Source of the DNA: a virus
Length of the DNA: 28,621 nucleotides
Direction: 5' to 3' (one strand)
Virus record (IMG/VR): IMGVR_UViG_3300021961_000459
Span: 1 to 28,621 of that record
Shown piece after piece: positions 23,563 through 24,756 of this stretch (the stretch's first letter is position 1; each line of letters starts with the position of its first letter). The notes under the pieces are model-generated. The model did no database searches, was not told where the DNA came from, and was given only the letters and a program-made list of their open reading frames with translations. The translations under genes and the position numbers were made by a program.

Positions 23563-24279
23563 TTATTCGATAGTAATAGACGGTGCATCTACGCATTCGG
23601 AGCAACCATCACGAGTCCATCCAAGGGCTTCAGATACAGCAGGGAACTGACAAGTAAAGATACAACGTACTAGTTCAGCAATCTCCATGTGTTCCTTCTG
23701 TGTTCCATGAGCAGACCGTAGATCAATATAATGGATCCATGACCGCACAGAGCCAGTCATATAGAGTCTTGTAGGCGTCGCTAAGGGCAGTACAAACCTT
23801 GCACACTCTTTTGCCACTCCTGCCTCTAGGAGACGATTATAGAGTTGCATTCCACGATCAAAATAAAGACGAATCTCCTCAGTCATCTTTAATTTCAGAT
23901 AATCGGGAATATCATCAATACTATTCTGACGATTCTTATCATCCTGACGACGAAGTTCAGGAAGGGGAATAGACTTACCAAGAAGAGTGCTATCTGCATA
24001 GCGTTGTGAAAATTCTTGATATGTGAAAGACCTATGCCGGAGAATTTGAGCTGCGATACCACGAGTCGTATTGATCTCTACAGTCATCGAAGATTGTTCG
24101 AAGATACTCCAGTGTTGATGCTGAATACAATACTTGAGCAGTCCAGAGAACTTTTCATTCTCTTGATTAGCAGGATTACTCACCCTTGCACAGTAAGCCA
24201 TATGCTTCTCTGCATCAGGAGTAACACTAATAAGTTTTACTTCTGGTTTCATATACTCAAAATCAATCGGGGTATCCAT
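23563..24279 (-). CDS. thyX: FAD-dependent thymidylate synthase ThyX
   Basis: ThyX makes dTMP from dUMP using FAD and methylene-tetrahydrofolate, feeding phage DNA synthesis. The ThyX motif is visible as RHRSFTYQEFSQRY, with Thr in place of the usual first Ser. The flanking HWSIFEQSSMTVEI and the C-terminal TGSVRSWIHYIDLRS, with HGTQKEHMEIAELV, are standard. The 238-aa length is normal. Four in-frame ATGs occur close together; the one at 24279 has a GGAG box 6 nt upstream and is the best start. The gene overlaps the upstream 59-aa gene by 17 nt, suggesting coupled translation. Confidence 0.93.
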   Translation of the reverse strand: MDTPIDFEYMKPEVKLISVTPDAEKHMAYCARVSNPANQENEKFSGLLKYCIQHQHWSIFEQSSMTVEINTTRGIAAQILRHRSFTYQEFSQRYADSTLLGKSIPLPELRRQDDKNRQNSIDDIPDYLKLKMTEEIRLYFDRGMQLYNRLLEAGVAKECARFVLPLATPTRLYMTGSVRSWIHYIDLRSAHGTQKEHMEIAELVRCIFTCQFPAVSEALGWTRDGCSECVDAPSITIE

Positions 24280-24442
24280 CATCATCTCCATCGTAAAATA
24301 CTTCGTCGTAGTCTGAAACGTAAGGTGCTATTTCTTCATAACTTGGTTTATAAGCATCAACATCAGAATAAATCTCTGACTTTAGACACTCAACCAGAGA
24401 CTCAAGGTTTCTCACAATTAATTTGAGTTTTTCTCTGTCCAT
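24263..24442 (-). CDS. Conserved acidic small protein upstream of thyX, 59 aa
   Basis: Function unknown. It has an N-terminal amphipathic helix (MDREKLKLIVRNLESLVECL) and a very acidic, Tyr-rich C-terminus (YVSDYDEVFYDGDDDGYPD). I recall similar sequences next to thyX in other cyanophages. The start at 24442 lies about 15 nt after the expected transcription start of the promoter at 24465-24493; longer versions of the frame run back through that promoter and its terminator and are not credible. The gene leads the thyX transcript and overlaps thyX by 17 nt. Confidence 0.75.
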   Translation of the reverse strand: MDREKLKLIVRNLESLVECLKSEIYSDVDAYKPSYEEIAPYVSDYDEVFYDGDDDGYPD

Positions 24443-24464: not shown

Positions 24465-24493
24465 ATTATAGACAAAAAAAGGAGGGTAGTCAA
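24465..24493 (-). promoter_or_regulatory. Sigma70-type early promoter embedded in a terminator
   Basis: On the minus strand TTGACT (24493-24488) and TATAAT (24470-24465) are separated by exactly 17 nt. The -35 box forms the loop and first stem base of the terminator at 24474-24499, and the T-tract is the spacer. It would drive the 59-aa gene and thyX with host RNA polymerase. Confidence 0.8.
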
Positions 24494-24499
24494 CCCTCC
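24474..24499 (-). terminator. Rho-independent terminator
   Basis: On the minus strand GGAGGGT-TGACT-ACCCTCC forms a 7-bp GC-rich stem with a 5-nt loop, followed by seven T. It lies 7 nt after the stop of the 60-aa gene at 24507. On the plus strand five A follow the stem, so it is directional. Confidence 0.88.
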
Positions 24500-24506
24500 A
24501 AAAAGA

Positions 24507-24689
24507 CTATTGTAAAATCCTCCGACATTCTCTCTTGCATGTTGTCTGGTCATCATCGCATTCAATCAGGCAGTTGTAGTAATCATTAATGAGATCAGAT
24601 TCCTCTATGCTCCTTTCTAAAGTTTTTCCCAATCTCGTAACACTTTGGTTCCATCCTGCTAATTGATTGTGTGAAATAAGATTATGCAT
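24507..24689 (-). CDS. Small Cys-containing protein, 60 aa
   Basis: Function unknown. The protein is helical and polar. It has four cysteines in its second half (residues 39-57, in NCLIECDD and TCKRECRRIL), which could form a disulfide pair or bind metal. The ATG at 24689 has a GGGGG box about 5 nt upstream and is preferred over a TTG four codons earlier. It appears to be a single-gene transcription unit: a sigma70-type promoter at 24757-24784 and a terminator right after its stop. Confidence 0.7.
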   Translation of the reverse strand: MHNLISHNQLAGWNQSVTRLGKTLERSIEESDLINDYYNCLIECDDDQTTCKRECRRILQ

Positions 24690-24756
24690 AATAACCCCCA
24701 AGGATAATTTAATTCATAATGAAGTTCGAATTTTGGTACAATTTTCTCACCTCTTA

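Follow-up and report, generated by a model that had tools for sequence, protein, structure and literature searches.

Does one short stretch of DNA between two co-directional genes of a cyanophage both end the upstream transcript and start the next one, and do relatives keep that arrangement? The question arises on the minus strand of a viral record of 28,621 nt (IMG/VR IMGVR_UViG_3300021961_000459; hereafter the window), which, by its nearest records (Kyanoviridae, e.g. Bellamy and S-SM2), is that of a T4-like cyanophage. The features concerned are:

24507..24701, minus strand: upstream ORF of 64 aa, with its stop codon 7 nt before the hairpin; similar DNA occurs in S-SKS1, S-SM2 and S-CAM1
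24481..24499, minus strand: predicted terminator hairpin GGAGGGT-TGACT-ACCCTCC (7-bp stem, 5-nt loop), from folding and from stem covariation in relatives
24488..24493, minus strand: −35 hexamer TTGACT, formed by loop bases and the closing T; TTGACN in 58 of 61 thyX relatives
24474..24480, minus strand: T-tract (T7) directly 3' of the stem and within the promoter spacer; at hli03 loci the T-run tracks the hairpin
24465..24470, minus strand: perfect −10 hexamer TATAAT, 17 nt past the −35; TATAAT in 53 of 61 relatives, spacer of 17 in 58 of 61
24458, minus strand: predicted transcription start, 7 nt past the −10, from sigma70 geometry
24263..24442, minus strand: first ORF of the downstream unit (59 aa, ATG at 24442), 71% identical to SynMITS9220M01_250
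23563..24291, minus strand: thyX, FAD-dependent thymidylate synthase (Pfam Thy1 PF02511, E 8e-46)

Read on the minus strand, positions 24499-24465 are GGAGGGT-TGACT-ACCCTCC-TTTTTTTGTC-TATAAT (in full, GGAGGGTTGACTACCCTCCTTTTTTTGTCTATAAT), a terminator hairpin and a promoter overlaid in 35 bp, the first 19 bases being the hairpin with its loop TGACT. The hairpin (24499-24481; five GC pairs of seven, dG about −11.8 kcal/mol) is GC-rich and has a U-tract immediately after it, as is typical of intrinsic (Rho-independent) terminators, and it is among the few strong terminator-like sites in the scanned part of the window; on the plus strand it is followed by A, not T, so that the element is one-directional. 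TTGACT-17-TATAAT agrees with the sigma70-type promoter (TTGACA and TATAAT with a spacer of 16–18 nt) at 11 of 12 positions, and the site at 24493-24465 is among the four best (11/12) in the scanned part of the window. The first-pass annotation had placed the −35 in the hairpin loop, which is correct for five of its six bases (TGACT), while the first T sits in the closing T-A pair; the T-tract that it saw inside the 17-nt spacer, with TATAAT following, is indeed there on the minus strand. It had also taken the element as the start of the thyX unit, and the element does precede that unit, but the first gene is the 59-aa ORF, whose end is overlapped by the thyX start and whose ATG lies 16 nt beyond the predicted start at ~24458. 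Genes for PhoH, a PD-(D/E)XK nuclease and a phage late-transcription coactivator (Pfam Trans_coact) follow thyX on the same strand.

Superposition of this kind is feasible because the promoter fixes letters only in the loop and the −10, and the terminator asks only for complementary stem arms, whatever their letters, and for Ts in the spacer. The reading that we prefer, with a probability of roughly 0.85, is that of a fused terminator-promoter, in effect an insulated sigma70 promoter compressed to 35 bp, which would end the upstream unit and start the unit of the 59-aa ORF and thyX. Three other strong terminator-like hairpins were seen on the minus strand of the window (28325-28308, 24851-24832 and 19570-19544), and the composite scan found no in-register promoter at any of them; one of the four strong hairpins in the window is thus fused, and the window, a 28.6-kb contig that makes up the whole record, holds a single copy of the fused element.

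Comparison with orthologous thyX sites drew on 80 viral contigs, those whose thyX is closest to that of the window, and 68 of them had enough upstream sequence. The fused element is found in 61 of these 68 loci, many of which are close relatives, mostly 165–200 nt before thyX and therefore ahead of the same small ORF. Its copies comprise 39 distinct stem-loop-stem sequences, with TTGACN as the −35 in 58, a spacer of 17 in 58 and TATAAT as the −10 in 53 of the 61. Stems average 8.5 bp, compared with 6.2 bp when the 3' arms were permuted among loci (500 permutations, maximum 6.8), and two of the seven negative loci resemble hairpins missed or rejected by the strict scan (L313, and the imperfect L281). 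Past the TATAAT many thyX relatives (e.g. L282, L291 and L305) share ACCTTTGTNGAGGTT, a short dyad (ACCT/AGGT) that spans both the predicted start and the Shine-Dalgarno-like GAGG; in the window (24464-24442) it survives only in diverged form.

Isolate genomes differ at this junction. A first, strict scan of the close isolates at thyX found no fused element, and relaxed settings recovered a weak version in SynMITS9220M01, GAGGGGCATTGCGACCCCTCTTTTTTTATGATATAAT, at the same site and ahead of the homologue of the 59-aa ORF (71% identical), with a weak −35 (TTGCGA). The strict scan missed this version since A-U pairs absorb its T-tract, and strict counts are thus lower bounds. S-CAM1 shares the three-part junction, with its promoter weaker and its TATAAT off register; in S-8S55, after similar upstream DNA, the recognisable parts are the hairpin, the T-tract and TATAAT only; Bellamy and S-SM2 carry a plain terminator rather than the fused element before thyX, and the strict scan found no fused element in Syn9.

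A second, independent site, directly before hli03, offers a natural comparison of the promoter with and without its hairpin. S-SM2, Bellamy and S-PM2 have the fused element there, behind different upstream genes. A sigma70 promoter lies about 22–28 nt before the gene in all 77 hli03 loci and is inside a terminator hairpin in 42 of them; a T-run of at least five accompanies the hairpin in 37 of those 42, versus 1 of the 35 loci without it (p 2e-15), and the single hairpin-less locus with a T-run (L735) proved on inspection to have a wobble-containing hairpin. This association indicates that the T-tract is part of the terminator and not of the promoter. Moreover, the variation at hli03 indicates that the promoter can occur free of the hairpin, whereas T-tract and hairpin appear and vanish as a single unit, as would be expected of a terminator set within a promoter. 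A few non-fused hli03 loci have a separate terminator ~60 nt farther upstream. At hairpin-less loci (e.g. L723, L736 and L740) the upstream ORF often seems to end in a TGA that is itself part of the −35 TTGACA; gene end and promoter then overlap directly and leave no space for a terminator.

The stems themselves were compared in an alignment of 22 distinct elements in one register from both sites, thyX and hli03. Standard pairs occupy 95.5% of the paired cells, a percentage that is inflated because the set was drawn from detected hairpins (the T-run test and the locus fractions are less biased). Eight of the nine stem pairs have changes on both sides, and double-change cells number 63, versus 20.2 ± 3.6 in shuffled alignments and no more than 29 with the register displaced. 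TTGAC, the Ts and TATAAT, by comparison, hardly vary in this alignment. As read from these patterns, the stem changes are compensatory and both signals have been kept together in relatives. The first-pass view that one element is at once terminator and promoter is upheld to this extent, by joint maintenance and compensatory stems, and the activity of each half is a prediction.

An inverted repeat over a −35 is a common placement for an operator, and the dyad around TTGACT could in principle be a protein-binding site for a repressor or activator rather than a terminator. Against this, the arms differ by locus (GGAACCC, GGACCTC, GCACCCC, GAGGGG, GGCAGG and others) and only their complementarity is kept; the T-run, in addition, occurs only on the side expected of a terminator and is absent where the hairpin is absent. 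We therefore consider an operator very improbable. It is almost as hard to credit that the element is a terminator only, with a coincidental or decayed match to TTGACT and TATAAT and with thyX transcribed from elsewhere. The poor −35 of some isolates at the thyX junction would suit that explanation, as would the 85 of 108 strong isolate-cyanophage terminators that have neither the TTGAC nor the TATAAT feature; against it, nothing in the element is as constant as the hexamers and their 17-nt spacing, whereas the stems vary freely, and the promoter before hli03 is present with or without a hairpin.

A chance origin was considered and ruled out by simulated windows, shuffles and a control motif. 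No composite of equal quality arose in 300 windows simulated with matching dinucleotide composition; the shuffles predict no occurrence of the 29-nt string from −35 to −10, even if 3 mismatches are allowed, and the fold of hairpin plus flanks is more stable than that of most shuffled versions (z −2.4). Viral contigs were then searched for TTGAC-N8-TTTTT-N5-TATAAT, with at least 120 records, as samples and not censuses. Among the matches listed, TTGAC was surrounded by a hairpin in 54 of 119 distinct viral contexts, versus 6.4 from local shuffles, and the control five-mer GTCAT in its place had a hairpin in 2 of 93 of the matches listed (Fisher p 2e-14). The idea that any TATAAT after a terminator would give this result is ruled out by the same control (2/93). 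With TATAAT moved to 22 nt, hairpins were still present in 22 of 98 (among the matches listed), but all 22 of these also have a −10-like hexamer at 17 nt, most with 5–6 of 6 matches. Taken with the GTCAT control, this indicates that the hairpin accompanies a properly spaced promoter.

As to a cellular origin of the element, bacterial genomes with the TTGAC/TATAAT pattern had a hairpin in 8 of 120 among the matches listed, several of them with the −35 in a stem arm, a comparison with the viral contigs that is indicative only, the bacterial sample being mostly Firmicutes. At 46 of the 54 viral composite loci (among the matches listed) at least two ORFs are similar to reference T4-like phage genomes, mostly of cyanophages. 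The first-pass annotation had suggested looking in other cyanophages for hairpins with TTGAC in the loop and TATAAT at 17 nt; the arrangement recurs, at the thyX and hli03 loci, and far from being a single occurrence lost in relatives it is present in 61 of 68 thyX loci. Sequence comparison thus marks the fused stop/start design as recurrent in T4-like cyanophages, neither chance nor one-off, and establishes its joint architecture, its conservation, the compensatory stems, the 17-nt rule and the association of the T-tract with the hairpin. A second topology was seen in five viral contigs (L498, L518, L528, L556 and L582), in which the −35 TTGAC lies in the 3' stem arm and the 5' arm thus carries its reverse complement, GTCAA.

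Eight isolate cyanophage genomes have 109 strong terminators. A −10-like hexamer begins 10–17 nt past the stem at 33 of these, where positions farther from the stem would predict ~8 (p 9e-11); many of these pairs have a degenerate −35, and the strict association of TTGAC with TATAAT at isolate terminators is marginal (4/10 versus 13/98, p 0.05). The composite hairpins have median energies of −13.6 and −15.6 kcal/mol and so match or exceed in strength the ordinary terminator-like hairpins of these genomes. P-SSM2 has four fused elements by the strict scan. Separately, P-SSM2 at 129076, 132741 and 245577 and S-8S55 (L795 928) show a terminator with TATAAT at the usual distance and a poor −35 in the loop; these sites may be weak or differently recognised promoters. 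RB49 and T4 follow another geometry, with −10-like hexamers peaking at 38–41 and 54–57 nt past the stem and some at 18–21; the stem end lies 12–32 nt before the −35, so that the two signals stand in tandem and do not overlap. At four RB49 promoters (record AY343333; 115005, 117381, 121708 and 134521, minus strand) an inverted repeat fills the 17-nt spacer (TTGACAGGGGATCGGTGATCCCCTATAAT), which is another overlap of promoter and hairpin, without a T-tract.

How might the two halves work together? For the fused terminator-promoter, the GGAGGGT/ACCCTCC hairpin would form in the upstream transcript, which would terminate within the U-tract, and host RNA polymerase with its primary sigma factor would independently bind the same DNA, using TTGACT as the −35 and TATAAT as the −10. 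Initiation at ~24458 would give a leader of ~16 nt for the 59-aa ORF, for thyX and probably for the co-directional genes beyond. Since the predicted start (~24458) is downstream of the hairpin, the initiated RNA would not contain the terminator; the two functions would share DNA only and would not disturb each other at the RNA level. With the start beyond the hairpin, the simplest function is insulation in very little space, by which the downstream unit would be shielded from read-through. What we infer from the sequence is the activity of both promoter and terminator, the start site, an early timing and the benefit of insulation.

The first-pass annotation proposed, in contrast, that competition for the same DNA couples the expression of the two genes, and we find insulation at least as likely. 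In the coupled case, terminating polymerases would occlude the promoter, so that upstream transcription would lower or time thyX expression. Geometry is consistent with this, because a transcript terminated here would have its 3' end ~15 nt short of the predicted start and a paused polymerase would therefore cover the promoter; about half of the hli03 loci, though, have the same promoter without a hairpin, which indicates that occlusion is not needed there, and a terminator also removes read-through, which decouples genes. Coupling is tentative, and it is compatible with the fused terminator-promoter: transient occlusion, while a polymerase pauses at the T-tract, may come on top of it, and so may local re-use of the polymerase that has just terminated. 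For re-use, an enzyme releasing its RNA at the T-tract while still over the promoter would keep or regain sigma and start the next unit, a relay that we regard as doubtful. Escherichia coli polymerase in vitro re-initiates at a downstream promoter after termination in ~37% of cases, and in 55% with added sigma (PMC6978380), on templates in which terminator and promoter are apart.

The element has the same parts and direction as the ordinary intrinsic terminators and sigma70 promoters of the same cyanophage genomes, but those usually stand separately, and here 35 bp serve both. Hairpins at phage promoters are also known from phage N4, where a hairpin in single-stranded DNA is the recognition signal for the virion RNA polymerase; the cyanophage promoter differs in that it stands without a hairpin in relatives, and its T-tract marks an RNA terminator. 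The closest known kind is the promoter-early stem-loop (PeSL) of T4-like phages such as RB49 and phi1, of which the cyanophage form is a fused variant. PeSLs of RB49 and phi1 were reportedly described by Arbiol (2010) and Comeau (2014). As cited in PMC4503421, PeSLs are cassettes of a promoter and a stem-loop, and the tandem layout of RB49 and T4 fits that description. As in PeSLs, which are likewise from T4-like phages, a terminator hairpin is joined to a strong sigma70 promoter where two genes of the same direction meet: the window has a strong, conserved sigma70-like promoter (11/12) and a paired stem-loop with terminator features (7-bp stem and T7). Unlike in RB49 and T4, where the stem-loop is followed by a separate promoter with its −35 12–32 nt after the stem, the −35 of the window is within the hairpin, in the loop, and the T-tract is in the spacer. 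The archaeal virus HGTV-1 has conserved TATA-box-like and inverted-repeat motifs before many genes, which its authors liken to PeSLs (PMC3950731); there too an inverted repeat is joined to a promoter element, but the promoter is archaeal and no terminator is shown within it. We found no description of a −35 inside a terminator loop in the open-access literature searched, and the novelty of the form is provisional.

Likeness to PeSLs raises the further idea that the element is kept as a recombination joint, for swapping gene modules that carry their own stop and start signals. PeSLs are described as mediators of shuffling in T4-like phages, as cited in PMC4503421, and the genes ahead of the hli03 element differ among S-SM2, Bellamy and S-PM2. 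DNA like the 64-aa ORF (24701-24507) is found at unrelated sites (L792 and L793), ahead of transaldolase in S-SKS1 and at 112 kb in S-SM2, with a similarity that stops before the hairpin, as in a small mobile gene. Upstream genes thus relocate. Of PeSLs one would also expect many similar copies, in hyperplastic regions; the window has one copy of the element and P-SSM2 four (strict scan). Against a joint stand the single copy in the window and the wide differences between stems at different sites, which leave only short homology for recombination; moreover, PeSLs were judged an unlikely cause of gene gain in S-PM2 (PMC4503421). A role as a recombination joint, although compatible with the fused terminator-promoter, therefore seems unlikely to us.

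In conclusion, two signals that are usually drawn separately can share the same letters, with selection keeping both through compensatory change. To synthetic biology the element offers a naturally occurring insulated promoter, and to transcription studies a clean template from nature on which to ask whether a polymerase that has terminated goes on to serve the promoter beneath it; were the relay true, gene units would be transcribed serially by re-used polymerase where host polymerase is limiting in the infected cell. Cyanophage promoters and terminators have so far been predicted separately (PMC3037559). For cyanophage genomics, the fused element provides a searchable signature of 35–40 bp that marks a unit boundary and a promoter position together.
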